A stretch of DNA of 64,000 bases from Tubulanus polymorphus (lineage: Eukaryota; Nemertea; Palaeonemertea; Tubulaniformes; Tubulanidae): NCBI RefSeq assembly GCF_964204645.1, contig NC_134030.1:20029110-20093109 (forward strand), given 5' to 3'. How positions within the stretch are numbered: the first letter of the stretch is position 1; each line of letters starts with the position of its first letter. The notes under the pieces were generated by a model that saw only the letters and a list, made by a program, of their open reading frames with translations, was not told the DNA's origin and searched no databases. Below, one piece after another: positions 17,758 to 53,609 of this stretch. A program made the position numbers and the translations under genes.

Positions 17758-18427
17758 ATGCTTGCTTATACAATGACTCGCATATGTGCTTTTGCTGCGA
17801 TTGTGGCCAGTGCCGCGGCCTTCAGTGGTGAGTTAAGACTGGGAAAATAATACTCAGCTTCATGAGATTTCATAAAATGATATAATTCAATTCACAATTA
17901 TCATTAAACATTTATTATGCGTTTATCGACGGAACGAATTGATTCGATAGATATATTTCACAAAATGACACATATACATTATGACAAAAACCCTGTTAAT
18001 TGACGTGCAATATATTGTTATTATACACATGTATTTTTTTAACACCCTGGCCCGCTAAGCGCAACGCTAGAAGCGGGTTCGATGTTTCTTTTTCCCAATA
18101 CCCACACTAGAGAAGAACCTCCGACCAAGAAACTTCCAATGGTTGAACCCATAAACCCTGGATTGATGAGAACAGTGACAGCCGGCTTATACCACTCGGC
18201 CACTGCGCCTCCCATCTGTTATCCTCATCGGGATCACCATTATAGTCCTACATCTGGGGGCGGGAGTTCCATTATTTCTTCAATTTAGGTAAAAACATCT
18301 TTCAATTCAAAATTCAATTTTTAATTTCATGTTTTTCGAAAATATAGATTGCTATCCAAAGGGCAGGACGTGTGACGATGACCTTAAGTGTTGCAACAAC
18401 ACCTGTAGAGCTAGTATTTGTTCCTGA
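17758..18427 (+). CDS. Secreted six-cysteine knottin-type peptide, unit 1
   Basis: Two exons: 17758-17827 (donor G|GTGAGT) and 18348-18427 (acceptor AATATAG, stop TGA), joined in phase 1, giving a 49-aa precursor. Exon 1 encodes a signal peptide ending in an Ala-rich stretch; exon 2 encodes a 26-residue mature peptide with spacing C-x6-C-x5-CC-x3-C-x4-C, the classic inhibitor-cystine-knot framework. ICK peptides include toxins, antimicrobials and endogenous neuromodulators in many animals, so the class does not fix the role. No propeptide or dibasic site separates signal and mature parts. The 520-bp intron carries a SINE. AATAAA lies at 18597. The receptor gene follows 1.7 kb downstream on the same strand. 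Confidence 0.75.
18105..18212 (-). mobile_element. tRNA-derived SINE in the knottin intron, unit 1
   Basis: Same element as 28285-28373 but with the segment around the B box partly deleted. Present in the intron of all four peptide genes. Confidence 0.5.
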
Positions 18428-20149
18428 TCGTTGAGTACAAAGGTTTATAATGGGATATACTCGTGGTGGTTTGGGAAATATATCCGATTATGAAACTGAA
18501 CGACAGTCAGTTTTACTGACTAGGCCGTGTACGAAACAGCTCGAATTGAATTTATATTTGTTACCGATTCTTCATATCTTGTAGTAAATTAGATTCAATA
18601 AAACTGCGAGTAAATAAATCAATTGTCGGGTTGTTGACTGTTTATGATTCATCGGTCAGAGTTTTCAAAGTGATCAGAAGTGCCATTCCATCGGCAGTGA
18701 AGAACATTCATCGTCAATTAAAAAAGACTACTCGTAAGCAAAAGTCCAAAATCTCCCTAATCAATTATTTCAGTCCCAGGGTTTAAATCTTTCATATGCA
18801 TCCATCCATTAAGATATTTAGAGTTTTCTGTCCTGTTGCCCGGTCGGTGATTTTCTTGTGACGTCACTCAACCTCGTATGAAACTGTGGAAAACAATATA
18901 AATACAGTTTTAAGATGCTTTAAATGAAATCCATTTTCGTAGTTCATTGATGCTTCGATTTTTTTTATTCTCTAAATTTAAGATTTCTATAGATTAGAAC
19001 TGAACCTCGGGGACTTCCACATCGAAAATCAGCAATATCAACTTTACCGTTTGTAACAACTTTGTGTGTAAATTCCTGAAGGTGCGTAAGATTTGAAATA
19101 ATTCTGTTTTGAAGCTGATTAGCGGCCATGCGTTCAAGCATCTTTGTGGCTACAGGTAAGTAAGACAATGATCTATAATTATTCAATTAGTATAGATTTA
19201 AAAGTTGTGTTTTTTATCAATTGCTCAACCGAGCATGATTTTAATTAAACAGTTCGTAGGTACAACACCGGTTTCCAAAGAGAGCAATTTATAATTCTAG
19301 TAACGATTGGAACAGTAACACACTGTTTTAGAATTGGCGCGGGCAACTAAAGCATCCCCTTTATACTTCGCAAATCCTGCATCAAAATTGCTCGGAGCAC
19401 CACGGAAAAACTGATCATTAACGCGACTAATGGTCAGTAGCGTATGTTCCAAACGAGCGATGGAAATTCACCTATTTCAAACTGGTCATTTATGTGTAAA
19501 ATACAAGCACTTGAGAGACCGGCGGATACGCGACATGGACATAATAGCGTAACCTGCATTTTCAAGTGTATTAATGGCTTATGCGAGCTTTCAACTTAAA
19601 CTTCGTGTTGGGCGGTGATTTATTGATAGGCCGTCTAGAAGACTGAGAACCGCGTAATTTTTTTTTGAAAAAAACTTTCTTTCAAAATTAATTCTGCAAG
19701 ATCTAGCGGTTTGAAATCAAATAATTTCGTTTCGTTGACATTTTCGTCATCTTGAATTGATGCTAATGTAGAAAAGCATTGAATAATGATATTGAGGCTC
19801 ATCGTTAATATTCAATGATTCTATAACTAAAATAACGTTCGGGTTGAATGTGTTCTGATGAAATACGTAATGTCTAATGACGAAATTCGTGTGTGAACAA
19901 ATTGGAAAAAAAAAACAAAATTGGAATTAATTGGCGCCTTAGGAATTTTGGTAAGCAACGTGGAATCTAGAAATTATTGCTAATTGGAAAACAGATCTTT
20001 ATGCAAAAAATCCAAACATATCAAATCTAGAATCGGTTTAGAACTAATTGCGGCAGTAACCAAAAATCCACCTAAAAGAAGTCACAGCGAATTCTCTAAT
20101 TTATCTGATTGGACGAACTGCAATTTGTGTTCGTTATTATTCGACGAAA
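18428..20149. other. Unit 1 interval between knottin and receptor genes
   Basis: Contains the peptide 3' UTR, a reverse-transcriptase relic (18965-19190), an anonymous minus-strand block (about 19320-19450) and the receptor 5' flank. I see no intact gene and no clear TATA box before 20150. Confidence 0.5.
18965..19190 (-). pseudogene. Non-LTR reverse transcriptase relic, unit 1
   Basis: Minus strand reads NNYRSLSYLPVATKMLERM and then jumps, by deletion, to DFRCGSPRGSV, matching RT finger and palm motifs (NYRP..LP..KLLER and G.PQGSVLGP). The catalytic FADD region kept in units 2 and 3 is deleted here. Confidence 0.75.
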
Positions 20150-23100
20150 ATGGTTTCGGTTCATTCTGTCGTGTTGATGCTGTTCGGTATGGATCGACTG
20201 AGAGCGCTGTTTATAGCGTCGCTGATCGTCTGGCGAGTTAATATCGCACACGCTGATCTGTCTGACTCTGTGACGGTTTGTTCGTCTTGTAACAACACTT
20301 GGTACCCCGTCGATTCTACGTCCGGTTACATCGTTTCACCGAATTACCCGTCGTTTACGCGAGGTGTTGAATGTCGTTGGTTCGTCAACAGCTCTTTACC
20401 GGGAACTTTCAACATCAAACTATACTACGACATCGAGCCGTCGATATTCTGTAGTGATAACTATCTTCTCGTCGGTGAGTCCGATAACAGATTCTGCGGT
20501 GAAGGAAAACATGGAATCCGCCGTAACGATTCGATGTCGTTGATGTTTAGAAGTAACGTCGATGGTGCGCGGGGTAGTCGGGTTTATATCATATATCGTT
20601 TAGAACGGAACAATTTGAAATTAATTCAAACCTGCGCAAGATACGGTTTAAAAATCAACAAATTACCAACATCGATAGGATATAAGTTTGCTTTGGTGGT
20701 ATGGCAATGTAAATTGTATTTAAAATGGATCGGGATCCCGGATGGGTTTGCTATGAATTTCACGTTTTCGCAGATAGAATTCCAATTATATCCCGGCACT
20801 GATCCAGCGACAACTGTTCAAATTCATGACGGATGGAACAGCAGTGAACTTCTTGCTGTAATACCAGAACAAACCGGACATCCACCTTCATCATTCTATA
20901 CTAAAACTAACAAAGCTATGATCAGTTTGCCACGTGGGCGAAACGTACTTACATCACAATTATCAGTTCAAGTGTATAGAATATCAGATTGGAACGTCTC
21001 TAATCCGTTAATCCAAATCTCTAATAACGAGTCTGGAGTGCTCATTCCTGATGACAACAGTTTACACGTAATAATTCGATCAAAACACTTACACTGCTGG
21101 TCTATCACAGTGCAGGTGTTACAGTACGTCGTCTTCAACTGGGCACGTGATCTCAGCACATCCGGTGACGTCATTGGTGTATATAAACTAGAAGGGTTAC
21201 GCGTTGTAGGAACTGATATTTTACTCGGTTACAACTACCTGGAATCACTGAGTGTTAAATCTGACGGCTTTCTCGTCATACTGTGCGTTTTAATAAGACA
21301 AGGTGTTTTACAGTCGAATGTAAAAATTGAATTTGAATTGAAATCTATTTCCATAAAAGACGTACGAGTGGATAAACGCTTGGTGAGTATTTGTGTGTTT
21401 TAATTTTAAGTTTAGGATTTTATTATGTGTGGATCTCTATTATTAGGTTTCATGCTTAGTTTTGTTTGTGTTCTGAGAACAAAGTGAAAGTCTTCGAAGC
21501 CAACACGAGAAGTTACGCGCACTTTTTCTTGGAGATCCAGATACTATAACTGCATGTGTTAACGATTATTGGGATGATTTAGGGTGGGTTTTTTTTCAAC
21601 TAAAATACTTTATTGGGAAATTTGGATTTTCCACCTGAAGAAGATATTTCATTTTAGCAAATCTTAAAACGTGGCAAAATCATAACTCGATATAGATTTG
21701 GAAATGCTGTTATGTTATTAATACTTAATAAAACTAATGCTGATTTGTTATATTTTGTAGATATCTGGTAACAGAAACAGCTACCGCTTGCCTGCTCAAA
21801 GATTGTTCCCGACGACAAAGAAGACAACATTATCGTATCGCATAAATACATTAGAATATAAACGGAAAGTTGATATCTATGAGGATAGATTAAAACTAAC
21901 AGTTTTATCAGAGACGTGCGAGAGAGCTGGATTTTATATATATGATGGTGGTAATTTTACAGCTAGACGCTATGGTCCGTATTGTCCTGGTCATATAAAC
22001 GGTCGTAGCGTCGTCAGTCTTATTACATCAGGAGGACCGGTTACTGTAGTAGGGTACGCTTATAACTGGGATGATCGGTTGGTAGTTGATTCGGAAGCAT
22101 ATCTAGTATTCGCCCCTACTGATTGTGACGGGTATGTTCTACAGGAAAGAGAAAATCAGATCAATATGACGTCACACTGTCTCGTGATTACACCTGAAAA
22201 CCGACGCCTTCCTTTAGAAAATATTTATATATTATCAGAACACGAATATCAAATTTACACTTGTTCCCGTGGTTTAAATTCGTGTCCTGTTGTTACTCTT
22301 GCAACTCAATTACTGAATAACAGTCTCTTATTGAATCATCTGATGATAAAAGGAAGTAGTTATAGGTTCTGGAGTAATCCACTGATGATTGTACTACGAC
22401 GTAAATGTTTGGTGTTGATGATCTATCAAGATTCCCCGGTACTTACTTCTGATAGTTTTGCATACGTCCCGCCGATGCGAGAAAAATGTGGAGTCGCACA
22501 ATCACCGAACTATCCTGGATATGTTCCACAACGCAGTAAATCAAGTTTGTACTACTCATTTCATTACGACAAACCTTTGAATTATTACATCAGATTCCTT
22601 TTCAAATTTATGGGACACGCCTCGTGCAGCCCTTCTAGTAGTAATGCCGTTCGAGATCAATTATTACTGGCACAGATTATTTCGAAACCTGGTAATCATG
22701 AAACCGGCTTTAGACAGCGTCGCCACGAGAATAAAATATGTGAAAATAACGCAGTACCTGGACTTGTATTGTACAGTCTACTCGGGTATGACGTTTACTT
22801 TGAAGCGAAAAACTATATCCCAATATTCAAAATTCAATACACTTTAGAACAAGCGTCCTTACAAACACATCTGAATAATGACTGCGGATTAGATTTTCTA
22901 GATTCAGGTGTTTCGTGTATCAGATACATCAAACATGAACGTCTGAATTGGGAGAACGCTGAAATGTACTGTCAACAGAAATACGGAGGACATCTTCTCA
23001 GTATCAACTCTGAACATGAAATGATTGCTTTAGAAAAACTGTTCGCTACGAAACTTCTTCAGGAGGCGTATTCACAGGCGGCGCTGATTCTGATGATTGG

Positions 23101-26100
23101 ATTGAAATGGCAGGTAATTTCAAAGTTTCGTTATGAACATGTTTACCAACATTCATTTAGTTTTGAACATGATTTTGAATTTGTTACGTATTCATTCATT
23201 CTCTACTAAAAGTCTAGAATCTTTCATATTAATTGAAACAGATTTCTATTAGTCAACGTGTAAAATATAACATAATCTTAATTTGATGAACTCAATTCAG
23301 ACGCTTGATATAAGTTAGATATCCTAAAGCTAATCGTCATGAACACTTCTAAAACCATTTCGATCAATGAAACTGAATTTATTTTGAACAGGATGATGGT
23401 TATTACACGTGGACTGATGGAAAACCATTGAGCTACACAGAGTGGTTTAAACCTACTATAATAAACGAAACGATACCAGAAGTTATTCAAGGATTGATAT
23501 CACCTCTACGAAAACAACCGATAAATGACGTCAATATGCCGTGTACGGCGATGATTCTGAATAATCCACGAGGATCAGCGAACTGGGTTCGATTCCCGTG
23601 TCAAATCGAGGAGACTCGAACAACTTTCATTTGTGAAAAAGACAAAGATAACTCCTCATCTACTAACAATCACAAATTACCTGTTGCAGAAGAAAACTAT
23701 ACTTATTTTTCGGGGATATTGGAATCAGATAACTCCACGTGTTTAAAGGGATGGATTGGTTTAGAAAGAAATTGCTATCAGATACTTACAGCCTGGGAAA
23801 CTCACATATTGTCAATTCGAGAAGCTGAGAGAATGTGTCATACAATTGGTGGTGAAATAGGTATAGTATCCAATGATGTTATAATTCAGCATTTGATTCA
23901 AATATTTCATTATGAACATCAATACGGTGCTGTTCTAGCAAAGGCTACGGAAAGTGAATTTCTTGCTCTGGATCCAGTTTTGACCAGAGATGAAATAACA
24001 TATATAAAAACGGTGAAATGGTCAGTGACTGCCTTTGATAATGTCACAGATGTAGCGCATTCAGTGCTATGTTCCTACAATGTAACTGATGAAAAGTTGG
24101 CTTCTATAAGTGGTTGTAAATCGTGGCAATTTGAATGTAACGATCACAGATGTATCAGCGATCATCGCGTATGTGATACCAGAAACGACTGTCAACACGG
24201 TGAAGATGAACTCGATTGTTCGGATTCAATCTTGCGCAGTCAGTTCCACTGTACCGATGGAAGAATTATATCAGTTAGTAATTTGTGTGATTTTGTACGA
24301 GATTGCGCTGACGGATCTGATGAGAACTCGTGCTATCATACTTCATGTTCCTCTGAACAGTTTAAGTGTAGCAATGGACAATGCGTGGGTAAATATAATC
24401 GATGTGATGGACTGGTTGATTGTAAAGATAAATCTGATGAGATCGGCTGCTCTTCGGATAAATGTAACGGGTTTCTGTGCGTAAATGGTGAATGCATCAG
24501 TTCTCTGTTGTATCGGGATGGCGTTGTAGATTGTGCTGGTAGCCTCGAAGAAGATGAGATTGTCGCCAACATAACAGTTACACCAAAGGTTCACTGTACT
24601 ACAGAGAACTACTGTACGACTAATTTCACAAACTTATGTAAGAAATCCGATGAACAAAGATGTTCTTTCGATTCTCCTCATTGTTATTCTAGACGTCACA
24701 GGTGCATTTTAGAAAGGATGTCGATTGGTTACCCGGTATGTAGAAGGCTCGAACATATACAAGGTTGTGCTGATTTCAAATGTCCAGCTGGTGCTGCAAA
24801 ATGTCCAGCATCTTACTGTATACCGATGGGACAGGTGTGCGATGGTCGATCCGATTGTCCTAACTCAGAAGATGAGCGAAACTGCAAGACTTTGTCATGT
24901 CCTGGCTTGTTTAAATGTGGCCAGGAAAACCGATGCATACCTCAATCTGAAGTTTGTGATGGTGTCGTCAATTGTAAACAGACCACTGATGACGAAGCGT
25001 TCTGTGACGTCATATGTCCAAAGGACTGTAAATGTCAAGGTCATTTGATAGATTGCGATCATGCTGGTTTCGTAGAAATTACTGATCTTTTCTCGGCATC
25101 AACTCGAGTTCTGATTTTGTCAAGAAACCAAGTTGTATTCAATGAGTCAACATTTTCTTCGTACCTCTATTTACATTTCCTTAATATTTCACGTAACAAT
25201 TTGTCTTATATTGTTCCAAACGCGTTCTCAAACCTGCATAATCTACATACATTAGATCTTACCTATAACCGCATAATATCATTTACCGAGAATACATTCG
25301 CCGGTTTGTATAGTTTGAAAAAACTTTTGTTTTTTGGAAATCCAGTGAGATATTTAAAAGAAGGCAGTTTTCATGGTTTAAAGTCATTGAGCGTTCTCGA
25401 TCTTCACGGACTTTCCTTGTCATTACTCGGTGGAAATGTGTTCAGTGGTTTATCCACTTTAGAGTCGTTAAATGTCAGCAGTAACGTGATCAAATATATT
25501 TCACCAAATGCATTCGCCGGATTAACAAAACTAAGAAATCTGGATTTAACCAAAAATTCTGAAGTCATATCCGTACAAAGAAACGTTTTTGACAGTCTTA
25601 CATTATTGAGTTCGTTGGCTTCTGACGCGTACAAATTTTGTTGCATGGTTCCGAATGTTGACCAGTGTCTCCCGGAAGCCGACCAATTTTCATCTTGTTC
25701 CGACCTGATGGGTAACACTGTTCTTAGAGCAATCATTTGGGCGATCGCTTCATTCAGCTTTTTTGCCAACATAATCGTAATTTTACTCCGCGTTCAAGCG
25801 TTACGCATTTCATCCTCTGAATCACGTAACATATCCTCTGATATCCTAATCATTAATATTGCCACCTGCGATTTTCTCATGTCAATTTATCTTTTTCTGA
25901 TCGCTGGAGCCGATTACGTCTATAAAGGTGTTTATTTCCTCAATTCCGAAATGTGGACAGATAGTTCACTATGTCGACTCGCTGGGATTTTAGTAACTCT
26001 TTCGTGCGAAGGGTCTTTGCTTTTTCTCCTGATTCTAACCCGTCAAAGATACTCGAATATCGTCGATCCATTTTCTGGAAGCCCAATTATATCATCGACA

Positions 26101-26622
26101 TATGTGTCCGGTATTTGCTGTATATGCTGGATCATTTTGGGCAACATTTCAATGCTACCGTTGTCGTCATCTTCTTATTTCGGACATAACTTTTACGGCA
26201 CAACTGGTGTTTGTTTACCTATGAATTTACTATCCATCGATGTCCACGCCTGGCAATATTCATTCGCTATTTTTGCCGTGTTTAACTCGGTCGTACTTGC
26301 TACAATAATGATGACGTATGCACAGATGTATAGACTCGTATCTGGAAGCAGGTCCGGCTCGGGTAGAGCAGATCCTACCGAATTGGTTCTGGCGCGTAGG
26401 AGTTTAGTGATAAATCTGTGTAATTTATTTTGCTGGTTACCGATAATTATCGTTCAGTTTTGCGCTGTATTGCGAGTAGAAATACCGAACCAAGTGGCGG
26501 CTTGGTTGGTGGTACTTTTCCTACCGATTAACTCGTCACTGAATCCACTTCTTTACACCATCCTCACTATTGATGTTAAATCTATTCGGGCCAGAAATAA
26601 ACGCGTTTTGAAAACTCGCTGA
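20150..26622 (+). CDS. Chimeric CUB / C-type lectin / LDLa / LRR G-protein-coupled receptor, unit 1
   Basis: Three phase-0 exons: 20150-21382 (donor TTG|GTGAGT), 21761-23113 (donor CAG|GTAATT) and 23392-26622; 1,938 aa. Signal peptide 1-36; CUB 47-151 (SPNYP, Cys 47, 75, 101, 116); Cys-poor CUB-like modules to about 411; CUB-like about 455-560; CUB from 654 (QSPNYPGY) to about 773; C-type lectin domain 786-943 split by intron 2; degenerate lectin domain 979-1089; LDLa 1104-1138, 1149-1176, 1181-1215, 1220-1243 (degenerate); Cys-rich 1264-1321; LDLa 1326-1360 and 1365-1400; LRRNT 1404-1417; about seven LRRs 1432-1604; CC hinge; 7TM 1640-1919 with QRY for DRY, CWLP in TM6 and NPLLY in TM7. The 3' half matches GRL101/relaxin-receptor (type C LGR) design. 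The ATG at 20150 or the in-frame Met 14 both give a signal peptide; an upstream TTG extension is ignored. Likely a surface receptor; ligand unknown. Confidence 0.9.
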
Positions 26623-26763
26623 ACCATTCGACAGTCAAACCCTGACTATGCACTCAAATCAGAATGCTGCGAAATCTTTTCAGATGAAATATATTATATA
26701 CATAAACAAATACGTAGCAAACGTGTGGACTCGAGAACGAACTGATACTTGCTTATACGTTCC

Positions 26764-26769
26764 AATAAA
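26764..26769 (+). terminator. Poly(A) signal of receptor unit 1
   Basis: AATAAA followed by an A run, 142 bases after the stop; the same signal follows every receptor copy. Confidence 0.6.
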
Positions 26770-27910
26770 AAAAAAACTGACGACACTTCAAGATAATATC
26801 GCAAAGTAATGAAATCATCGAATGGGTTTCGAATCGTGTCCAGAAATACGACGTAGCGATAAGAATACACGCTAGGAGAGCTGAGTAATGTCATCTAATA
26901 TGAGTTGTAACACCGATTATCCTGACAGTTAATTACGCTTATTTTATATCAGGATGATTTGAAAATTATGTAAGCTGGAAATAAAAGTGCCAAATAGTGG
27001 TACATGTTCTACGTTCATGATCATTTAAACAGTTTCGAGGATTTCTTAGGAATTCTTTTTTGTGACTTTCAAATTTAGGCGGGGGTCGGGGGGGGTTGGG
27101 GGTTCCTCTAAATCTGCCCCTGAAATGTGCCGCATTCTTAGGCAGTTTTTACTCCAAGTCTTCAAATCAGGAGGAATGCATGTATCACAGAGGGCTGCAT
27201 TACGTCACTGCAGAAAATGCGTCTCGTGGAGAGAATGGTGGAAGGCGGGGACTTAACAAAACTGTTTAGATGATATATAAGATGACGCGTTTTTCTGCTT
27301 TCGTGAATATGTATTGTTAAAGGTTTTGAATACATATGGATTTAAAAACTTCTCGCTGCATTTCCCTTTAAGAGGACACCAAGAAGAGTCAATCAATCAC
27401 CAAAGCTGTGCAATTATTTGGTTTTATTTCAATTTGTATTTGAAGAATATATAGTATCGCGCGCAATATTTTTCATTCATTCGTCGACTGTTCTGGCTCG
27501 AGAAAACGAGATATTGTCATTTCGAAAGTATAATACGTTGGAATAGCGACTAAGGTAAGCGTAGTGATAAAATATTCTAATTTAACGATAAAAAATGATA
27601 CCTTGTTTCTTAAAAGCTTAAAAGTTGACCCGGCCGACCGCCGCCTATCTACCCTATACATTATTCTAAAAAAGAAACTATTATCAGCCAATCGACGACA
27701 AGACGCGGCGGCTATTGAAACGAATGGATTACAAATTTAATTGAAATTTACAAAATAATCCGGGCGCTGCGGAGAAACAAGGTGTCATTTTTAGCCTAAA
27801 AATAATATACCCCGATACGTACAGCAACAATTTCAGTAACCGGAATCTAAAATATATTTTTGAAAATGCCAAATTGCAAATATATTTTATTCAAATTCTA
27901 GGCGAAGAAA
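26770..27910. other. Shortened spacer between receptor 1 and knottin 2
   Basis: Lacks the GPCR relic, SINE, 78-nt module and 15102-15430-type block found in other spacers: sequence after 27020 joins directly to the G-rich tract (27080-27102). A second deletion near 27856 removes about 0.8 kb before the peptide gene. No gene seen. Confidence 0.6.
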
Positions 27911-28586
27911 ATGCTTGCTTACACAATGACTCGCATATGTGCTTTTGCTGCGATTGTGGCCAGTGCCGTGGCGTTTGGTGAGTTAAGACTGGGAAAATAA
28001 TACTCAGCTTCATAGGATTTCATAAATGATATAATTCAATTCGCAGCAATTATCAGTAAACATTTAGTATGCGTTTATCGACGGAACGAATTGATTTGAC
28101 AGATATATTTCACAAAATAACACATATACATTATGACAAAAACCCTGTTAATTGACGTGCAACATATTGTTATTATACACATGGATTTTTTTAACACCCT
28201 GGCCCGCTAAGCGCCACGCTAGAAGCGGGTTCGATGTTTCTTTTTCCCAATACCCACATCAGAGAAGAACCTCCGACCAAGAAACTCTGCCGCCTCCAGG
28301 GTTTGAACCCATGAACCCTGGATTGATGAGAGCAGTGTCAGGCGGCTTATACCAATCGGCCACTGCGCCTCTCATCTGTTATCCTCATCGGGATCATCAT
28401 TATAGTCCTACATCTGGGGCGGGAGTTCCATTATTTCTTCAATTTAGGTAAAAACGTCTTTCACATCAAAATTCAATTTTTAATTTCATGCTTTTCGAAA
28501 ATATAGATTCCCATCCAAACGGCAGGACGTGTGACGATGACCTTAAGTGTTGCAACAACACCTGTAGAGCTAGTTTTTGTTCCTGA
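27911..28586 (+). CDS. Secreted knottin-type peptide, unit 2, first cysteine lost
   Basis: Exons 27911-27977 and 28507-28586; 48-aa precursor. The signal exon is one codon shorter than in the other units and ends GTG GCG TTT G before the donor. In the mature exon the first knot cysteine codon is TCC (Ser) instead of TGC, leaving five cysteines, an odd number. The frame, splice sites and stop are intact. The peptide cannot form the three-disulfide knot of its sisters; it might dimerise through the free cysteine or be an early-stage pseudogene. AATAAA at 28756. Receptor 2 starts 1.8 kb downstream. Confidence 0.7.
28285..28373 (-). mobile_element. tRNA-derived SINE in the knottin intron, unit 2
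   Basis: Minus strand carries GTGGCCGATTGGTATAAG (A box-like) and GGGTTCAAACCCTGG (B box-like) at tRNA-like spacing. Too degenerate to be a tRNA gene. Confidence 0.6.
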
Positions 28587-30381
28587 TCGTTGAGTACAAA
28601 GGTTTATAACGGGATATACTCGTAATGGTTTGGGAAATATATCCGATTATGAAACTGAACGACAGTCAGTTTTACTGACTAGGCCGTGTACAAAAAAGCT
28701 CGCACTGAATTTATATTTGTTACCGATTCTTCATATCTTGTACTAAATTTGATTCAATAAAACTGCGAGTAAATAAATCAATTGTCGGGTTGTTGACTGT
28801 TTATGATTCATCGGTCAGAGTTTTCAAAAGTGATCAGAAGTGCCATTCCATCGGCGGTGAAGAACATTCATCGTCAATTAAAAAAGACTACTCGTAAGCA
28901 AAAGTCCAAAATCTCCCTAATCAATTATTTCAGTCCCAGGGTTTAAATGTTTCATATGCATCCATCCATTAAGATATTTAGAGTTTTCTGTCCTAGTTCC
29001 CGATCGGCGATTTTCTTGTGACGTCACTCAACCTCGTATGAAACTGAGGAAAACAATATAAATTCAGTTTTAATATGCTTTAAGTGAAATCAATTTTCGT
29101 AGTTCATTGATGCTTCGATTTTTTGTTTATAAAATAGTAAGTATCATCTGCAAACATCGTGCAATCTAAGATGTCTATAGATTATATCAGCAATAGGTGC
29201 CGAATATAAAAAGTAAATAAAACTGGCCCCAGAACTGAACCTTGGGGGCTTCCACATCGAAAATCAGCAATACTAACTTTACCGTTTGTAACAACTTTGT
29301 GTGTACATTCCTGAAGGTGCCTAAGATTTGAAATAATTCTGTTTTGAAGCTGATTAGCGGCCATGCGTTCGGGCATCTTTGTGGCTACAGGTAAGTAAGA
29401 CAATGATCTATAATTATTCAATTAATACAGATTTAGAATTTGTGGTTTTTATCAATTGCTCAACCGAGCATGATTTTAATCTAACTGTTCGTAGGTACAA
29501 CACCGGTTTCCAAAGAGAGCAATTTATAATTCGAGTAACGATTGGAACAGTAACACACTGTTTTAGAATTGGCGCGGGCAACTAAAGCATCTCCCTTATA
29601 CTTCGCAAATCCACGACCCGCATCAAAATTGCTCGGAGCACCACGGCAAAACTGATCATTAACGCGACTAATGGTCAGTAGCGTATGTTCCAAACGAGCG
29701 ATGGAAATTCACTTATTTCAAACTGGTCATTTATGTGTAAAATACAAGCACTTGAGAGACACACGGATACGCGACATGGACTTAATAGCGTAACCTGCAT
29801 TTTCAAGTGTATTAATGGCTTATGCGAGCTTTCAACTTAAACTTCGTGTTGGGCGGTGATTTATTGATAGGCCGTCTAGAAGGCTGAGATTGAACCGCAT
29901 ATTTTTTTTTGAAAAAAAACTTTCTTTCAAAATCAATTCCGAAAGATCTAGCGGTTTGAAATTAAACAAATTCGTACGGATATAGTTAATGAAATTTTGA
30001 ATTGATGCAAAGGTAGAAAAGTATTGAATAATAATTTCTAGGCTCATCGTGAATATTCGACGATTCTATAACTAAAATTACGTTCGGGTTGAATGTGTTC
30101 TGATGAAATATGTAATGTCTAATGTCTAAATTCGTGTGTGAACAAATTGGAAAAATCGAATTTGGAATTAATTGGCCTTAAGAATTTTGGTAGGCAACGT
30201 GGAATCTAGAAATTATTGCTAATTGATAAACAGATCTGTAAGCTAAAAATCCAAACATTTCAAATCTAGAATCAGTTTTCAAACTAATTGCGGCAGTAAC
30301 CAAAAATCAACTTAAAAGAAATCACAGCGAATTCTCTGATTGGACGAACTGTAATTTGTACTCGGTTGTTATTCGACGAAT
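28587..30381. other. Unit 2 interval between knottin and receptor genes
   Basis: Peptide 3' UTR, reverse-transcriptase relic (29115-29421), anonymous minus-strand blocks (29481-29693 and 29832-30047, open in part and repeated in unit 3), then the receptor 5' flank. No intact gene. Confidence 0.5.
29115..29421 (-). pseudogene. Non-LTR reverse transcriptase relic, unit 2
   Basis: Best-preserved copy: NNYRSLSYLPVATKMPERM, a collapsed middle, CGSPQGSVLGPVLFTFYI and, after a frame change, MFADDTYYFI, the RT catalytic motif. The anonymous blocks further upstream on the same strand are probably also remnants of the element. Confidence 0.8.
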
Positions 30382-38084: not shown

Positions 38085-38162
38085 CTGTTGCACTGAAGGT
38101 TTGGGTTACTGATATTTCTGATCGATGAACCATGCTCACGAATCGGTGTGCAAATACATTTT
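38085..38162 (-). other. 78-nt exon-like module, unit 3
   Basis: Same length and splice-like borders (TTTTAG and CAACAG|GTGAGT) as 14904-14981. Confidence 0.35.
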
Positions 38163-38911: not shown

Positions 38912-38937
38912 GGGGGTGGGGCGGGTGGGGGACGGGG
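38912..38937 (+). other. Strong G-quadruplex-type tract, unit 3
   Basis: Five G runs of three or more within 26 bases, separated by one or two bases. About 1.4 kb before the knottin gene. Confidence 0.5.
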
Positions 38938-42754: not shown

Positions 42755-45700
42755 ATGGTTTCGGTTCATTTTGTCGTGTTGATGCTGTTCGGTATGGATC
42801 GACTGAGAGCGCTGTTTATATCGTCGCTGGTCGTCTGGCGAGTTAACATCGCGCACGCTGATCTGTCTGACTCTGTGACGGTCAGTTCGTCTTGTAATAA
42901 CACTTGGTACCCCGTCGATTCTACGTCCGGTTACATCGTTTCACCGAATTACCCGTCGGTAACGCGCGGTGTTGAATGTCGTTGGTTCGTCAACAGCTCT
43001 TTACCGGAAACTTTCAACATCAAACTATACTACGACATCGAGCCGTCAATATTCTGTAGTGATAACTACCTTCTCGTCGGTGAGTCCGATAACAGATTCT
43101 GCGGTGAAGGAAAATACGAAATCCACCGTAACGATTCGATCTCATTGCTGTTTAGAAGTAACGTCGATGGTTCGCGGGGTAGTCGGGTTTATATCACATA
43201 TCGTTTAGAACGAAACAATTTGAAATTAATTCACACCTGCGCAAAATACGGTTTAAAAATCAACAAATCACCAACATCGATAGGATACAAGTTTGCTTTG
43301 TTGGTATGGCAATGTAAATTGTATTTAGAATGGATCGGGATCCCGGATGGGTTTGCTATGAATTTCACGTTTTCGCTGATAAAATTCCAATTATTTCCCG
43401 GCACCGATCCAGCGACAACTGTTCAAATTCATGACGGATGGAACAGCAGTGAACTTATTGCTGTAATACCAGAACAAACCGGACATCCACCTTCATCATT
43501 CTATACTAAAACTAACAAAGCTATGATCAGTTTGCTACTTGGGCGAAACGTATTTACATCACGATTATCAGTTCAAGTGTATAGAATATCAGATTGGAAC
43601 GTCTCTAATCCGTTAATCCAAATCTCTAATAACGAGTCTGGAGTGCTCATTCCTGATGACAACAGTTTACACGTAATAACTCGATCAAAACACTTACACT
43701 GCTGGTCTATCACAGTGCAGGTGTTACAGTACGTCGTCTTCAACTGGACACGTGATCTCAGCACATCCGGTGACGTAATTGGTGTATATAAACTAGAAGG
43801 GTTACGCGTTGTAGAAACCGATATTTTACTCGGTTACAACTACCTGGAATCACTGAGTGTTAAATCTTACGGCTTTCTCGTCATACTGTGCGTTTTAATA
43901 AGACCAGGTGTTTTACAATCGAATGTGAAAATTGAATTTGAAGTGAAATCTATTTCCATAAAAGACGCACGAGTGGATAAACACTTGGTGAGTATTGTGT
44001 GTTTTGATTTTAAGTTTTGGATTTTACCATGTGTGGATCTCTATTACAAGGATTCATGCGTAGGGTTTTCCCGTTGTCTTCCGAAAATAAATTGAACGTC
44101 TTCGAAGAAGTTACGTGCACTTTTTCTTGGAGATCCAGATACTATAACTGCATGTGTTAGCGATTATTGGGATAATTTAAAAGAAATTTCATTTTAGCAA
44201 ATCTTAAAACACGAATTGCTGCACCTAACAAAATCATTAACGGACATAGATTTGAAAATGTTGTTATGTTATTAATACTTAAAAAAACAAATGCTGATTT
44301 CTTATATTTTGTAGATATCTGGCTACAGTTACAATTTACTTCCTCGATTTCTGTTCCCAACGACAAAGAAGACAACATTTTCGTATCGCATAAATACATT
44401 AGAATCTAAACGGAAAGTTGATATCTATGAGTATAGATTAAAACTAACAGTTTTATCAGAGACGTGCGAGAGAGTTGGATTTTATATATATGATGGTGGT
44501 AATTTTACAGCTAGACGCTATGGTCCGTATTGTCCTGGTTATAAATACGGTCGTAACGTCGTCAGTCTGATTACATCAGGAGGACCGGTTACTGTAGTAA
44601 CATACACTTATAACTGGGATAAAAACTTAATAGTTAATCCGGTGTCATATCTATTATTCGCCCCTACTGATTGTGACGGGTATGTTCTGCAGGAAGGAGA
44701 AAATCAGATGAATATGACGTCACACTGCCTCACGATTACACCTGAAAACCGGCGCCTTCCTTTAGAAAATATTTATATATTATCAGAACACGAATATCAA
44801 ATTCACACTTGTTCCCGTGGTTTAAATTCATGTCCTGTTGTTACTCTTACAACTCAATTACTGAATAACAGTCTCTTATTGAATCATCTGATGATAAAAG
44901 GGAGTAGTTATAGGTTCTGGAGTAGTTATATGATGATTGTACTACGACGTAAATGTTTGGTGTTGATGATCTATCAAGATTCCCCGGTACTTACTTCTGA
45001 TAGTTTTGCATACGTCCCGCCGATGCGAGAAAAATGTGGAGTCGCACAATCACCGAACTATCCTGGATATGTTCCACAACGCAGTAAATCAAGTTTGTAC
45101 TACTCATTTCATTACGACAAACATTTGAATTATTACATCAGATTCCTTTTCAAATTTATGGGACACGCCTCGTGCAGCCCTTCTAGTAGTAATGCCGTTC
45201 GAGATCAATTATTACTGGCACAGATTATTTCGAAACCTGGTAATCATGAAACCGGCTTTAGACAGCGTCGCCACGAGAATAAAATATGTGAAAATAACGC
45301 AGTACCTGGACTTGTATTGTACAGTCTACTCGGGTATGACGTTTACTTTGAAGCGAAAAACTATATCCCAATATTCAAAATTCAATACACTTTAGAACAA
45401 GCGTCCTTACAAACACATCTGAATAATGGCTGCGGATTAGATTTTCTGGATTCAGGTGTTTCGTGTATCAGATACATCAAACATGAACGTCTGAATTGGG
45501 AGAACGCTGAAATGTACTGTCAACAGAAATACGGAGGACATCTTCTCAGTATCAACTCTGAACATGAAATGATTGCTTTAAAAAAACTGTTCGCTACGAA
45601 ACTTCTTCAGGAGGCGTATTCACAGGCGGCGCTGATTGTGATGATTGGATTGAAATGGCGGGTAATTTCAAAGTTTCGTTATGAACATGTTTACCATCAT

Positions 45701-48700
45701 TCATTTAGTTTTGAACATGATTTTGAATTTGTTACGAATTCATTCATTCTCTACTAAAAGCCTAGAATATTTCATATTGATTGAAACAGATTTCTATTAG
45801 TCAACGTGTAAAATGTAACATGATCTTAATTTGATAAACTCAATTCAGACGCTTGATATAAGTTAGATATCCTAAAGCTAATCGTCATGAACACTTCTAA
45901 AACCATTTCGATCAATGAAACTGAATTTATTTTGAACAGAATGATGGTTATTACACGTGGACTGATGGGAAACCATTGAGCTACACAGAATGGTTTAAAC
46001 CTTCTATGATAAACGAAACGATACCAGAAGTTATTCAGGGATTGATATCTCCTCTACGAAAACAACCGATAAATGACGTCAATATGCCGTGTACGGCGAT
46101 GATTCTGAATAATCCACGAGGATCAGCGAACTGGGTTCGATTTCCGTGTCAAATCGAGGAGACTCGAACAACTTTCATTTGTGAAAAAGACAACGATAAC
46201 TCCTCGTCGACTAAAAATCACAAATTACCTGTTGCAGAAGAAAACTATACTTATTATTCGGGGATATTGGAATCAGTTAACTCCACGTGTTTTAAGGGAT
46301 GGATTGGTATAGAAGGACATTGCTATCAGATACTTACAGCCTGGGATACTCACAGATTGACAATTCGGGAAGCTGAGGAAATGTGTCTTCAAATCGGTGG
46401 TGAATTAGGAATAGTATCCAGTGATGTTATAATTCAGCATTTGATTCAAATATTTCATTATGAACATCAATATGGTGCTATACTGGCGAAGGCTACGGAT
46501 AGTGAATTTCTTGCTCTGAATCCAGTTTTCACCAGAGATGAAATAACATATAAAAAAACGGTGAAATGGTCAGTGACTGCCTTTGATAATGTCACAGATG
46601 TAGCGCATTCAGTGCTATGTTCCTATAATGTAACTGATGAAGAGTTGACTTCTATAAAAAGGTGTAAATCGTGGCAATTTGAATGTAACGATCAAAGATG
46701 TATCAGCGATCATCGCGTATGTGATACCAGAAACGACTGTCAACACGGTGATGATGAACTCGATTGTTCGAAATCAATCTTACAGAGTCAGTTCCACTGT
46801 ACCGATGGAGAAGTTATATCTGTTAGTAATTTGTGCGATTTTGTACGAGATTGCGCTGACGGATCAGATGAGAACTCGTGCTATCATACTTCATGTTCCT
46901 CTGAACAGTTTAAGTGTAGCAATGGACAATGCGTGGGTAAATATAATCAATGTGATGGACTGGTTGATTGTAAAGATAAATCTGATGAGATCGGCTGCTC
47001 TTCGGATGAATGTAACGGGTTTCTGTGTGTAAATGGTGAATGTATCAGTTCTCTGTTGTATCGGGATGGTGTTGTAGATTGTGCTGGTAGCCTCGAAGAA
47101 GATGAGATTGTCGTCAACATAACAGTTACACCAAAGATTCACTGTACAACAGAGAACTACTGTACGACTAATTTCACAAACTTATGTAAGAAATCCGATG
47201 AACAAAGATGTTCTTTCGATTCTCCTCATTGTTATTCTAGACGTCACAGGTGTATTCTAGAAAGGATGCCGATTGGTTACCCGGTATGTAGAAGGCTCGA
47301 ACATATACAAGGTTGTACTGATTTCAAATGTCCAGCTGGTGCTGCAAAATGTCCAGCATCTTACTGTATACCGATGGGACAGGTGTGCGATGGTCGATCC
47401 GATTGTCCTAACTCAGAAGATGAGCGAAACTGCAAGACTTTGTCGTGTCCTGGCATGTTTAAGTGTGGCCAGGAAATCCGATGCATACCTCAATCTGAAG
47501 TTTGTGATGGTGTCGTCAATTGTAAACATACCACAGATGACGAAGCGTTCTGTGACGTCATATGTCCAAAGGACTGTAAATGTCAAGGTCATTTGATAGA
47601 TTGCGATCATGCTGGTTTCGTAGAAATTACTGATCTTTTCTCGGCATCAACTCGAGTTCTGATTTTATCAAGAAACCAAGTTGTATTCAATGAGTCAACA
47701 TTTTCTTCGTACCTCTATTTACATTTCCTTAATACTTCACGTAACAATTTGTCTTATATTGTTCCAAACGCGTTCTCAAACCTGCATAATCTACATACAT
47801 TAGATCTTACCTATAACCGCATAATATCACTTTCCGCGAATACATTCGCCGGTTTGTATAGTTTGAAAATGCTTTTGATTTTTGGAAATCCAGTGAGATA
47901 TTTAGAAGAAGGCAGTTTTCAAGGTTTAAAGTCATTAAGCGATCTCGATCTTCACGGACTTTCCTTGTCGTTACTCGGTGGAAATGTGTTCCGTGGTTTA
48001 TCCGCTTTAGAGTCGTTAAATTTCAGCAGTAACGTGATCAGTTATATTTCACCAAATGCGTTCTCCGGATTAACAAAACTAAGAAATCTGGATCTAACCA
48101 AAAATTCTGAAGTCATATCCGTACAAAGAAACGTTTTTGACAGTCTTACATTATTGAGTTCGTTGGCTTCTGACGCGTACAAATTTTGTTGCATGGTTCC
48201 GAATGTTGACCAGTGTCTCCCGGAAGCCGACCAATTTTCATCTTGTTCCGACCTGATGGGTAACACTGTTCTTAGAGCAATCATTTGGGCGATCGCTTCA
48301 TTCAGCTTTTTTGCCAACATAATCGTAATTTTACTTCGCGTTCAAGCGTTACGCATTTCATCCTCTGAATCACGTAACACATCCTCTGATATCCTAATCA
48401 TTAATATTGCCACCTGCGATTTTCTCATGTCAATTTATCTTTTTCTGATCGCTGGAGCCGATTACGTCTATAAAGGTGTTTATTTCCTCAATTCCGAAAT
48501 GTGGACAGATAGTTCACTGTGTCGACTCGCTGGGATTTTAGTAACTCTTTCGTGCGAAGGGTCTTTGCTTTTTCTCCTGATTCTAACCCGTCAAAGATAC
48601 TCGAATATCGTCGATCCATTTTCTGGAAGCCCAATTATATCATCGACATATGTGTCCGGTATTTGCTGTATATGCTGGATCATTTTGGGCAACATTTCAA

Positions 48701-49170
48701 TGCTACCGTTGTCGTCATCTTCTTATTTCGGACATAACTTTTACGGCACAACTGGTGTTTGTTTACCTATGAATTTACTATCCATCGATGTCCACGCCTG
48801 GCAATATTCATTCGCTATTTTTGCCGTGTTTAACTCGGTCGTACTTGCTACAATAATGTTGACGTATGCACAGATGTATAGACTCGTATCTGGAAGCAGG
48901 TCCGGCTCGGGTAGAGCTGATCCTACCGAATTGGTTCTGGCGCGTAGGAGTTTAGTGATAAATCTGTGTAATTTATTTTGCTGGTTACCGATAATTATCG
49001 TTCAGGTTTGCGCTGTATTGCGAGTAGAAATACCGAACCAAGTGGCGGCTTGGTTGGCGGTACTTTTCCTACCGATCAACTCGTCACTGAATCCACTTCT
49101 TTACACCATCCTCACTATTGATGTTAAATCTATTCGGGCCAGAAATAAACGCGTTTTGAAAACTCGCTGA
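42755..49170 (+). CDS. Chimeric CUB / C-type lectin / LDLa / LRR GPCR, unit 3
   Basis: Exons 42755-43987, 44315-45661 and 45940-49170; 1,936 aa. Exon 2 is open from the acceptor at 44314, although its first ATG/GTG/TTG-type codon comes only at 44642. The second half of exon 2 is almost identical to unit 1 (SDSFAYVPPM and the segment after it). Two splice-border changes are private to this copy: the exon 2 donor is CGG|GTAATT instead of CAG|GTAATT (Gln to Arg, weaker -2 position), and exon 3 begins with Asn instead of Asp. GT and AG are intact. A lectin-start Asp is Gly (NNGCG). Domains otherwise as in unit 1. AATAAA at 49312. Confidence 0.88.
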
Positions 49171-49311
49171 ACCATTCGACAGTCAAACCCTGACTATGCA
49201 CTCTAATCAGAATGCTGCGAAATCTTTTCAGATGAAATATATTATATACATAAACAAATACGTAGCAAACGTGTGGACTCGAGAACGAACTGATACTTGC
49301 TTATACGTTCC

Positions 49312-49317
49312 AATAAA
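49312..49317 (+). terminator. Poly(A) signal of receptor unit 3
   Basis: AATAAA with an A run, 142 bases after the stop. Confidence 0.6.
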
Positions 49318-49844
49318 AAAAAAACTGACGACACTTAAAGATAATAACGCAAAGTAATGAAATCATCGAATGGGTTTCGAATCGTGTCCAGAAATACGAC
49401 GTAGCGATAAGAATACACGCTAGGAGAGCTGAGTAATGTTATCTAATATGAGTTGTAACACCGATTATCCTGACAGTTAATTACGCTTATTTTATATCAG
49501 GATGATTTGAAAATTATGTAAGCTGGAAATAAAAGTGCCAAATAGTGGTACATATTCTACGTTCATCGATTTAAAACCGTATTTGAACGCTTCAATGTTA
49601 AAGCGAAGGATAAAGCTTGCGTTGCTTTCGTCCATTCAAAGTCCTACGCCCGGAGGAGGTGGGATCACTTCAAATGCGTGTCGAACCATATGGACATTAT
49701 CGGCGCTGTTAAAGGTGATCTACGTCTTTTGAATTCAGTCGTGTTCAGTATGTTCTTGCCAGTTTCTCGTTTATTAATCTTTTATAGCCTCGGCCTTCAA
49801 CACCCCCCTGACAAAGGATAAGTATCGTCTAATGCACTGAGTTA

Positions 49845-50115
49845 GGTGTACTCGGGCCCACAACGGGAACGACAATTGAATCAATCGCTCAACACTGATC
49901 AGAATGATAACCGAGTTCCGATTCATCTTCGCCGTGTGCTGAAGTCCGTCACAGTACACAGTAAACACCGCCGACACTCCGTAAAAATAATTCAAATATC
50001 GGAATTTTTCCAGACCGTACGTCCACAACGATAAGTATTCCTTCAATGAGGTGAAGCAAAATAACGCGACCAGGTATTTTAGGATCGCAAATATTCTGAG
50101 CAGGTGGTACGTACA
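49845..50115 (-). pseudogene. Inverted relic of the region 1 GPCR, unit 4 spacer
   Basis: Minus strand reads SLWTYGLEKFRYLNYFYGVS through SVERLIQLSFPLWARVHLT in one frame (about residues 88-154 of the receptor), then changes frame toward TM2. Slightly better preserved than the unit 3 relic. Confidence 0.85.
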
Positions 50116-50166
50116 AATTTGTAAATTCGAGAAAAAACAATTGTAAGAAATAACCGTGAAAATTAG

Positions 50167-50240
50167 CGTTCGAACCCCTAAGCCCTCGGTTGCCTGGAGA
50201 CTAGCGACCGGCGGCTTAAAACCACTCGGCCAGTGAGCCT
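50167..50240 (-). mobile_element. tRNA-derived SINE head, unit 4 spacer
   Basis: Same element and position as 37860-37932. Confidence 0.55.
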
Positions 50241-50391
50241 GTTACATGAGTTCATAGAAGATTTGGATTGTGTATTGAGCTTGGATCAAAATTTCCACCA
50301 GTTGTGATCTAGATGCTTAGTTTACGTTAGTATACTGAACGGCATGATCGATGACCAACAATATTCACCATTCAATATACGATTTACTCAC

Positions 50392-50469
50392 CTGTTGCAC
50401 TGAAGGTTTGGGTTACTGATATTTCTGATCGATGAACCATGCTCACGAATCGGTGTGCAAATACATTTT
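50392..50469 (-). other. 78-nt exon-like module, unit 4
   Basis: Same length and splice-like borders as the other units. Confidence 0.35.
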
Positions 50470-52932
50470 CTAAAAGGAGTTTAATACAAATATACAGTTT
50501 GACAGGTTGTAGTGCAGTTCGGTCGTCAAAACAACTGACGAAAATTGTAATGAATAGTTAACCTATCGTGTGAAACTGAATTAACTCACAAACATCAGTT
50601 TAAGTACCGTACTGCTATTTCCAAACTTTCGTTGTATTAAATTAGACAGCCAAGAAAATTCACCCCCAATCAGTCGCTTGCCGGTTAAGACTGAATGAAA
50701 GATTGTTTGAATGAACCGGAACCGAATTTCCCAATTATGTACTTTGAACAAAAAACTTTTGTAAACTCGACCGCCGATCACACAACTATATCTGTACTTC
50801 GATTATCGATTGTAAAACCAAACCCCCTGTTTCGCTCCCGGCAGGTGTGGTGGGTTTGTAAGGGACACTCAATCAAAAAATCAAACGAAATTTACCAACC
50901 AAATAAATAACAGGGACCATCCCTATTTTAGGAAAAAAAACACAAATGAAGAAGAGCCACAATTCAAAGTATACACGATAAAATCTATCAAATTGAACCC
51001 ACTACGTTCGCTAACAGCCACTATCACGTGGAAAGCGGCAAAATTTCGGCAATATTTAAACTTCAAACCGGGGCGTTGATGACGTACGTAGTCCCGGCCA
51101 ATTACATACATGAGTGTCTTCTAAACGATTAATATATTTATCGAAAATCCCCATTAAAATATTCCTGCTGTGCGGCCAGTTTGTTCTCTACTTATCACCA
51201 AACTGTGTAAAACATATCCTCAATTGACGGTGCAGTATTTCAGGGGCGAATCTCGGGTATTTGGGTCCAGGGAAGTAAAAGGGACCATATGAAACGTTTC
51301 TGTAATGACGATGCAAGACGCATAACGACATAGCCCTATGGCCAGGGGTACTCGACAATAGAAATGTTATGAAATTTTAAGAAGAATTTGGTCGGATTTT
51401 CCACGAAGTTGAATATTGACATCCATGAAATTGATCATAAAATACACAATACCACGACCACAATCACAATACCATTGTATATTCATCATTTTGTATGAGA
51501 AAATACCACTTCTGTTTGTTTTATATTCACCTTAATTAAAATAATAAATTTAAACAGTTTCGAGGATTTCTTAGGAATTCCTTTTTGGGACTTTCAAATT
51601 TAGGCTCTAAATCCGCCCCTGAATTGTGCCGCATTCTTAGGCATTTTTTACTTCAAGCCTTCAAATCACGAGGAATACACGTATCACAGAGGGCCGCATT
51701 ACGTCACTGCAGAGAATGCGTCTCTTGGAGACGATGGTGGAAGGCGGGGACTTAACAAAACTGTTTAGATGATATATAAGATGTGTTTTTCTGCTTTCGT
51801 GATGGATCTAAAAACTTCTCGCTGCATTTCCCTGTAAGAGGACACCATGAAGAGTCAATCAATCACCAAAGCTGTGCAATTATTTGGTTTTATTTCAATT
51901 TGTATTTGAAGAATATATAGTATCGCGCGCAATATTTTTCATTCATTCGTCGACTGTTCTGGCTCGAGAAAACGAGATATTGTCATTTCGAAAGTATAAT
52001 ACGTTGGAATAGCGACTAAGGTAAGCGTAGTGATAAAATATTCTAATTTAACGATAAAAATGATACCTTGTTTCTTAAAAGCTTAAAAGTTGACCCGCCC
52101 GGCCGCCGCCTATCTACCCTATACATTATTCTAAAAAAATAAACTTTTATCAGCCAATCGACGACAAGACGCGGCGGCTATTGAAACGAATGGATTACAA
52201 ATTTTATTGAAATTTACAAAATAATCCGGGCGCTGCGGAGAAACAAGGTGTCATTTTTAGCCTAAAATAATATACTCCGATAAGTACAGCAGCAATTTCA
52301 GTAACCGGAATCTAAAATACGACACATGACTAAACACTTTTTTTCTGCTGAAAATCATGCATCGATTAATTGATCAATGACGTGTCATATAGTGTTCTAT
52401 CAATCGTGTTCATAACCAAATTTTTCTATAATAAATGATTTTCTATAATTGAGGTTAGTAACTAATTTCAAACGAATATCTTTTGACTAGATCATTTGGG
52501 CTGAGGAACCAAACTTGGAAGCGACTCTGAAGACAAAAAATGAATTATCGATGATTATCTATATTAGATATTTAAAGCTTATCACTCACGGAAAGAAACG
52601 ACAGAGACTTGTTCCTGCGATGCCCAAACACTAGCAATGCGGCCGCCCTGCACTCACTTCATAGCACGGCATTCAAACCAGCGATTCAAACCCGTTACAC
52701 TGCTCTGCACTAAATCAAAAATACATCAAGTATTCTTTATGAATTTTGACTATATCTATTATCAGTTCCTTTTTTCTGTGTAGCTGCGTTATTTCAAACC
52801 TGGCTCATTCTCTGACGAAAAGGTTTGCTCATTGAGAGCCTATTTGAAAACTGTCGCAATATCAATTTTCTTTTCGAATTTTTGAAAATGCCAAATTGCA
52901 AATATATTTTATTCAAATTCTAGGCGAAGAAA

Positions 52933-53609
52933 ATGCTTGCTTACACAATGACTCGCATATGTGCTTTTGCTGCGATTGTGGCCAGTGCCGCGGCCTTCAG
53001 TGGTGAGTTAAGACTAGGAAAATAATACTCACCTTCATGAGATTTCATAAAATGATATAATTCAATTCACAATTATCATTAAACATTTAGTATCCGTTTA
53101 TCGACGGAACGAATTGATTCGATAGATATATTTCACAAAATGACACATATACATTATGACAAAAACCCTGTTAATTGACGTGCAACATATTGTTATTATA
53201 CACATGTATTTTTTTAACACCCTGGCCCGCTAAGCGCCACGCTAGAAGCGGGTTCGATGTTTCTTTTTCCCAATACCCACATCAGAGAAGAACCTCCGAC
53301 CAAGAAACTCTGCCGCCTCCAGGGTTTGAACCCATAAACCCTGGATTAATGAGAGCAGTGTCAGGCGGCTTATACTACTCGGCCACTGCGCCTCTCATCT
53401 GTTATCCTCATCGGGATCATCATTATAGTCCTACATCTGGGGTGGGAGTTCCAATATTTCTTCAATTTAGGTAAAAACGTCTTTCACTTCAAAATTCAAT
53501 TTTTAATTTCATGCTTTTTGAAAATATAGATTGCCATCCAAAGGGCTGGACGTGTGACGATAGCCTTAAGTGTTGCAGCAACACCTGTAGAGCTAGTATT
53601 TGTTCCTGA
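52933..53609 (+). CDS. Secreted six-cysteine knottin-type peptide, unit 4
   Basis: Exons 52933-53002 and 53530-53609; 49-aa precursor. All six cysteines are present with the standard spacing. It is the most changed mature peptide relative to unit 1: Tyr to His and Arg to Trp in loop 1, Asp to Ser in loop 2, Asn to Ser in loop 3, while the signal exon has only a silent Tyr codon change. The first downstream poly(A) signal is altered (AATAGA). The SINE-bearing intron is conserved. Confidence 0.75.
53305..53393 (-). mobile_element. tRNA-derived SINE in the knottin intron, unit 4
   Basis: Orthologous to 28285-28373, with both box-like motifs on the minus strand. Confidence 0.6.

Follow-up and report, generated by a model that had tools for sequence, protein, structure and literature searches.

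A knottin gene arrayed in tandem with a GRL101-type receptor gene in Tubulanus polymorphus: diversifying selection in the outer exons of the receptor and probably near-neutral variation of the peptide within the array

For the characterization of a small cysteine-rich peptide gene in the nemertean Tubulanus polymorphus, we analysed a stretch of 64,000 nucleotides (in the following called the window; C6:20029110-20093109, where C6 is the label used for contig NC_134030.1) in the context of the whole genome (267.8 Mb, 77 contigs). A genome search revealed 20 tandem copies of this knottin gene at C6:19.815-20.107 Mb. The array unit consists of the knottin gene and a large GRL101-type receptor gene located downstream of it. 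We consider it fairly probable that the knottins form a family with variable loops, that one member of this family was copied together with its neighbouring receptor about twenty times, that the knottin varies almost neutrally inside the array, and that selection acts on the outer exons of the receptor.

The strongest evidence for selection was found in the receptor. A domain search with the unit 1 receptor showed a CUB domain, a C-type lectin part-match below the cut-off, five LDLa repeats, leucine-rich repeats (LRR) and a seven-transmembrane (7TM) part. Exon 3 contains five LDLa, three LRR_8 and one 7tm_1 stretches, as in GRL101 or type C2 LGR receptors, and the database matches are named GRL101-like; the assignment to the GRL101 type is based on this domain content and on the names of the protein matches. 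13 of the 17 receptors examined are open and four are broken; in two of the latter, the break is due to a 1.76-kb element with long inverted arms. Codon tests were carried out on nine distinct open copies, leaving out the four broken ones and four twins from a block duplication described below. By counting, omega is 0.61 in exon 1, 0.89 in exon 2 and 0.46 in exon 3, with 0.33 in the 7TM part. In site models, twice the log-likelihood difference (2dlnL) amounted to 43.1 for exon 1, and exon 2 reached 138.3. In addition, the receptor was cut into 16 segments with a separate tree for each. Five of the six exon-2 segments reached p < 0.002 (the last one p = 0.77), two of the three exon-1 segments as well as the exon-3 lectin and LDLa segments gave p values of 0.0006-0.04, and both LRR and both 7TM segments remained at p > 0.05. 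Exon 2 also carries in-frame insertions and deletions within its variable patches, which were chosen by eye, making their contrast circular. The contrast between exon 2 and the 7TM part is one within a single gene, even if gene exchange inflates the values. Diversifying selection is clear in the outer exons of the linked receptor, and the 7TM part is conserved. According to the codon tests, the outer N-terminal exons of the array receptors are selected for difference, next to a conserved signalling part, and these exons may form a recognition surface. The predicted structure of exon 2 (mean pLDDT 27) was not used.

The receptor family reaches far beyond the array, because a DNA motif from the 7TM part (at most one mismatch) occurs at no fewer than 221 places in the genome (control: 0). 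In the receptor search, the best 96 of 915 candidates include 20 in the array, to which the broken copy R10 has to be added. GRL101-type receptors are very expanded in this genome; they were found on C6, C8 and C9 among the first 100 motif matches, and on C12, C22 and C32 in the receptor search.

The knottin gene is predicted to consist of exon 1, encoding the signal peptide, a phase-1 intron of about 0.5 kb and exon 2, whose first two bases complete an Asp codon. The mature peptide with the pattern CX6CX5CCX3CX4C is encoded by this one exon and follows directly after the signal. The pattern is present in exon 2 of 18 of the 20 array copies, the first cysteine (Cys1) being lost in the other two. 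The signal exon of one copy carries a frameshift of 2 nt and the frame is kept in 19 copies; all 20 retain their splice sites and the stop codon of exon 2, and 11 distinct mature peptides occur among them. All nine aligned family members possess the six cysteines in the order of an inhibitor cystine knot (ICK), with the last loop one residue shorter in three of them. Judged by this order, the knottin exons encode members of a family of short ICK-like peptides. Searches of the protein collection for homologues, with a single sequence and with an alignment of 10 rows, gave no match. No Pfam family was found for the array knottin at an E-value of 0.01 (Conotoxin 15.3 bits against a cut-off of 25.1, Conotoxin_I2 12.9 against 27), and in profile comparisons, conotoxin and scorpion/spider models gave weak matches. 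The profile match between the array knottin and Nemertide alpha-1, which has a solved structure, was not significant (E = 4.2), so that a relation by sequence was not detected.

The initial annotation of the window described eight variable sites in the mature exon, all of them changing an amino acid, and took this for diversifying selection. The count is correct. The four exon-2 copies starting at 18348, 28507, 40898 and 53530 differ at exactly eight positions (4, 6, 14, 18, 33, 34, 49 and 69), all of which are replacements (C/S, Y/H, K/N, R/W, D/N/S at two sites, N/S and I/F). For the signal exon, a silent Tyr-codon change had been noted in three of the copies, and this holds for these three; in the copy at 27911, a codon is deleted, Ala is exchanged for Val and one or more further silent changes are present. 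The neutral silent expectation was derived from the base changes which these copies show in their intron and 3' flank, applied to non-stop changes in the mature codons. With an expected silent fraction of 0.231, the probability of finding no silent change among eight is 0.123. The pattern is therefore real, but its force as a signal of selection is small. This does not change much with further copies: all 20 array copies together have 11 variable exon-2 sites, 10 replacement and one silent (CCA/CCT, in two copies), which is compatible with the expected fraction (P = 0.24) as well as with a shortage of silent changes. The annotation had named two outcomes that would refute it, namely silent changes at the neutral proportion and an exon diverging no faster than its introns. 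The second of these is observed in the array, since 11 of 80 sites are variable in exon 2 compared to 96 of 486 in the intron, 41 of 202 in the 3' untranslated region (UTR) and 83 of 475 beyond (124 of 677 for the whole 3' flank). Taken together, the proposed diversifying selection on the mature knottin is partly supported: it fails against the noncoding rate in the array and finds modest support in the contrast to the signal exon and in the codon models of the wider family.

Replacement changes in the mature exon are as dense (0.170 per site) as changes in intron and 3' flank (220/1163 = 0.189; p = 0.86), and the mean diversity of exon 2 (0.0538) is equalled or exceeded by 39% of 187 noncoding windows of 75 nt. 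The variation of the array knottin cannot be told from neutral, except for weak hints of retained amino-acid variants. Such hints would be expected if diversifying selection acted on the mature knottin within the array and copies were kept for their differences, an explanation which we regard as rather unlikely. The ratio of replacement to silent changes is 10:1 in the mature exon versus 2:4 in the signal exon (p = 0.028; the frameshifted copy was left out for the signal exon). In exon 2, piN (0.065) exceeds both piS (0.012) and the noncoding window mean (0.048). Of the 11 variants in exon 2, seven are common (present in at least five of the 20 copies), versus 43 of 220 in noncoding DNA (p = 0.0025), and the 11 distinct peptides point in the same direction. 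However, these tests (mature/signal contrast, piN/piS, common and rare variants) were picked after the data had been seen, 8.1% of the noncoding windows contain as many common variants as exon 2, and mean diversity and common-variant enrichment give opposite pointers. Besides the equal replacement density and the many equally diverse noncoding windows, the non-significant shortage of silent changes (P 0.12-0.24), the frameshifted copy and the two copies without Cys1 speak against selection for difference. The last two, the intron-like variability of the exon and one receptor whose knottin gene is missing would rather fit redundant copies that drift toward loss under relaxed constraint. Such decay is very unlikely in our view, with the frame kept in 19 and the splice sites and stop codon in all 20 copies and the cysteines fixed across the aligned family members. 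Moreover, exon 2 has fewer rare variants than noncoding DNA (4 vs 11.4 per 75 nt), which is a sign of constraint. Exon-2 sites are shuffled between array copies, as 13 of 36 site pairs show the four-gamete pattern. Array results change little when the four near-identical twin copies are dropped.

The genome was searched for further knottins with the 3' UTR (best 40 of 179 candidates), with the signal exon (best 40 of 80) and with a 3'-UTR motif, which occurs at 41 places (control: 0). The knottin family reaches beyond the array, because at least 61 distinct 3'-UTR places were found and only 20 of them lie in it (41 elsewhere). With the signal-exon matches there are at least 72 knottin places, 52 of them outside the array and 38 of these on C12; the number is 63-65 if places on the same strand within 5-7 kb are counted as one gene. 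Seven divergent loci (L021-L027) contain ten mature exons, and L048 adds one more. The first mature exon of L024 has no stop at the usual place. In L023, L024 and L025, all on C12, a single signal exon is followed by two successive mature exons, which are possibly alternative mature exons.

Family alignments comprised one array copy and seven or eight distinct divergent exons (8-9 members); the codon analyses were made without three mature exons that are identical or nearly so to others (both of L024 in the order first and second, and the first of L025). The six cysteines are invariant in all members. In the mature exon of eight members, pN is 0.370 and pS 0.416 (0.502 and 0.468 when cysteine codons are excluded), compared to 0.252 and 0.315 in the signal exon of seven members. 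Mean distances over seven loci are 0.372 for the mature exon, 0.263 for the signal exon, 0.310 for the 60 nt before the ATG and 0.208 for the 3' UTR; alignment is poor for introns (0.334, 48% gaps) and downstream noncoding DNA (0.588). The values of signal exon and 3' UTR may reflect constraint. Comparison of the site models M1a and M2a showed 2dlnL of 6.76 for eight sequences (p = 0.034; omega 2.98 at 44% of sites) and 7.21 for nine (p = 0.027). In null simulations, 16 of 400 reached the value of 6.44 observed with the scaled-tree fit, and the signal-exon control gave 2dlnL of 0.00. Support for omega > 1 in the knottin family is modest. The family retains signal exon, 3' UTR and six cysteines, and its loop residues are exchanged about as fast as silent sites change, or somewhat faster. 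Fixed scaffolds with free loops are typical of defence- and venom-type peptide families. Since the knottins share this combination, the peptide is presumably secreted and might act on varied foreign targets as a defence, venom or mucus peptide.

The close association of both genes raises the question of a functional pair. In 15 of 17 knottins examined, a receptor begins 1.71-1.86 kb downstream of the exon-2 start. No receptor is present within 3 kb of the remaining two, and one of these is located 1 kb from the end of the sequence examined. If the knottin were the ligand of the receptor in its own unit, the two might diversify together in the manner of plant S-locus or fungal B-locus pairs. 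The diversifying ectodomain and the fact that GRL101 is still termed an orphan receptor (PMC11863921) would agree with such a system. Nevertheless, we hold it to be most improbable. Among the 119 distinct receptor places listed, only one of the 52 non-array knottin places lies near (within 20 kb of) a receptor (C6:21.06 Mb, 16 kb), and one of 99 non-array receptors lies near a listed knottin, so that the two genes are not linked wherever they occur. An arrangement with every knottin beside a receptor was also dropped at single loci: L048 has no receptor from about 1.2 to 10.2 kb downstream of the first C9 knottin, and the knottin at C6:21.06 Mb (L021, L049) has none up to about 5.5 kb downstream, the nearby one being about 16 kb away. 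The distances of knottin and receptor exon 2 do not correlate (r = 0.12, p = 0.20) among 11 units, a sample of low power in which several neighbouring segments of the same unit also barely correlate (mature exon and its own intron: r = 0.03); the latter fits frequent exchange between copies. Finally, receptor R05 is open although it lacks the preceding 841-base stretch in which unit 1 carries its knottin gene. Because linkage is rare among the places listed elsewhere, co-variation was not found in the 11 units and R05 stays open without a knottin, co-amplification is preferred over a ligand-receptor pair. One knottin is part of a tandem unit with the receptor and was copied jointly with it about twenty times; the linkage of the two genes would be mostly hitchhiking. 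A bolder interpretation goes further: GRL101-type receptors, with their 221 or more motif places, would form a large germline recognition repertoire with hypervariable outer exons, and the array knottin would be the built-in partner of this orphan receptor class, either as ligand or as an effector released with the sensor. We think this hardly likely.

Several observations weigh against co-amplification of a nearly neutral knottin with a selected receptor. The receptor list covers 119 places, compared to 221 or more for the motif, and may therefore miss linkage elsewhere; it contains one receptor on C12, the home of most knottins, where the linkage figure may shift. The receptor tests assume one tree per segment despite gene exchange in the array, possibly inflating the values, and silent diversity is raised in the hypervariable patches too. 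For the peptide, the enrichment of common replacements and the mature/signal contrast suggest some selection within the array as well. In the wider family, the mature exon evolves faster than the 3' UTR and the signal exon of the same gene, whereas its rate is not clearly above that of unconstrained DNA. Selection at this level is based on 25 codons, a tree length near 9 and the author's own codon-model script.

Table 1. Features of the knottin-receptor array in the window. Positions count from the first nucleotide of the window.
Feature	Position	Strand	Remarks
Unit 1 knottin signal exon	17758..17827	+	GTGAGT donor after end; acceptor TTCTAG about 9 nt upstream of ATG
Unit 1 knottin mature exon (exon 2)	18348..18427	+	CX6CX5CCX3CX4C, stop TGA
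Unit 1 GRL101-type receptor	20150..26622	+	predicted exons 20150-21382, 21761-23113, 23392-26622; 1939 codons including stop
Unit 1 receptor exon 2	21761..23113	+	most variable coding part; in-frame indels, sites with omega > 1
Unit 2 knottin signal exon	27911..27977	+	shorter by one codon, Ala to Val
Unit 2 knottin mature exon	28507..28586	+	first Cys codon TGC to TCC (Ser)
Unit 2 receptor	30382..36859	+	
Unit 3 knottin signal exon	40300..40369	+	
Unit 3 knottin mature exon	40898..40977	+	
Unit 3 receptor	42755..49170	+	
Unit 4 knottin signal exon	52933..53002	+	
Unit 4 knottin mature exon	53530..53609	+	
Unit 4 receptor	55394..61878	+	
Near-identical block	5843..64000	+	recurs at C6:19802646-19860810

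The large block which recurs within C6 comprises 58 kb with 99.84% identity (77 mismatches and 4 gap openings in 58169 columns). It is either a recent duplication within the array or a doubling in the assembly, and makes four of the 20 knottin copies near-identical twins (2-4 differences in 3.16 kb). The two inverted-arm elements (C6:19922729-19924489 and C6:19945311-19947069) are about 1.76 kb long, about 90% alike and inserted into receptor exon 3 at two separate sites. Single-frame 7TM receptor genes (Srw-like, rhodopsin-like) precede the array at positions 2712-3701, 5832-6827 and 7717-8670 of the window, and Srw fragments in reverse orientation occur in many array spacers. Large nested inverted repeats are located upstream of the array (8973-9455/12034-12516 and 9683-10002/11487-11806). 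A search of the window against Rfam at gathering scores gave no match. Two antisense tRNA-Lys predictions inside the receptor coding sequence look spurious and were discarded.

These results move the attention from an impression gained on a few peptide copies to a measurable system, in which the ectodomains of the array receptors diversify with strong codon-level support and the 7TM part is fixed. The knottin family, with at least 61 3'-UTR places, is an uncharacterised set of peptides as far as our homologue and literature searches show; owing to the conservation of signal exon and 3' UTR, its members can readily be collected and tested. Among the papers listed in literature searches, none names this knottin-receptor array in its title.

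In plants the S-locus (SCR/SRK) and in basidiomycetes the B mating locus place the gene of a small secreted ligand beside a variable receptor gene. There, ligand and receptor form an obligate pair with co-varying specificities. The array resembles these loci in that a small peptide gene adjoins a variable receptor gene. It differs from them because the two families are mostly unlinked among the places listed and co-variation was not found in the 11 units of the low-power comparison. With ICK toxin and defence peptides, such as the conotoxin superfamilies, the knottin shares the C-C-CC-C-C order, a signal with a short mature peptide, fixed cysteines and variable loops. In contrast to them, its mature part follows directly after the signal, the first member stays below the Pfam cut-offs, and its knotted fold is putative. 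The nemertides, like the alpha-nemertide of Lineus, are ICK peptides of nemerteans as well, and positive selection and duplication are reported for nemertean toxins including an ICK group (PMC10674772). Apart from the insignificant match to Nemertide alpha-1, they differ by their occurrence, alpha-nemertides being described there mostly from Lineus and Riseriellus. T. polymorphus is among the transcriptomes which were searched for toxins in PMC9415933; the terms ICK, knottin and cystine knot are absent from the main text of that article.

GRL101-like receptors are treated in PMC12297450, PMC8286064, PMC11863921 and PMC6267866. The insulin-like growth factor (IGF) has been posited as a ligand of GRL101 (PMC8286064), in contrast to its description as an orphan receptor (PMC11863921). 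The array belongs to an expanded family of these receptors. LDLa repeats, LRR and a rhodopsin-type 7TM part are common to GRL101 or type C2 LGR receptors and the array receptor, and a relative from Lytechinus (P0009) is also annotated with CUB and C-type lectin; the difference lies in the very high copy number found here. A parallel is the SudRes2 cluster of the snail Biomphalaria, where receptors of this type likewise lie densely packed within a hyperdiverse region. The 12 GRL101-like receptors found there carry C-type lectin and LDLa domains, and the region is associated with schistosome resistance (PMC12297450). SudRes2 is smaller than the array, its top variants are located in a non-GRL101 gene, and knottin genes or a CUB part go unmentioned in the available passages of that article. 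A receptor cluster similar to the array is thus found in a region associated with parasite resistance.

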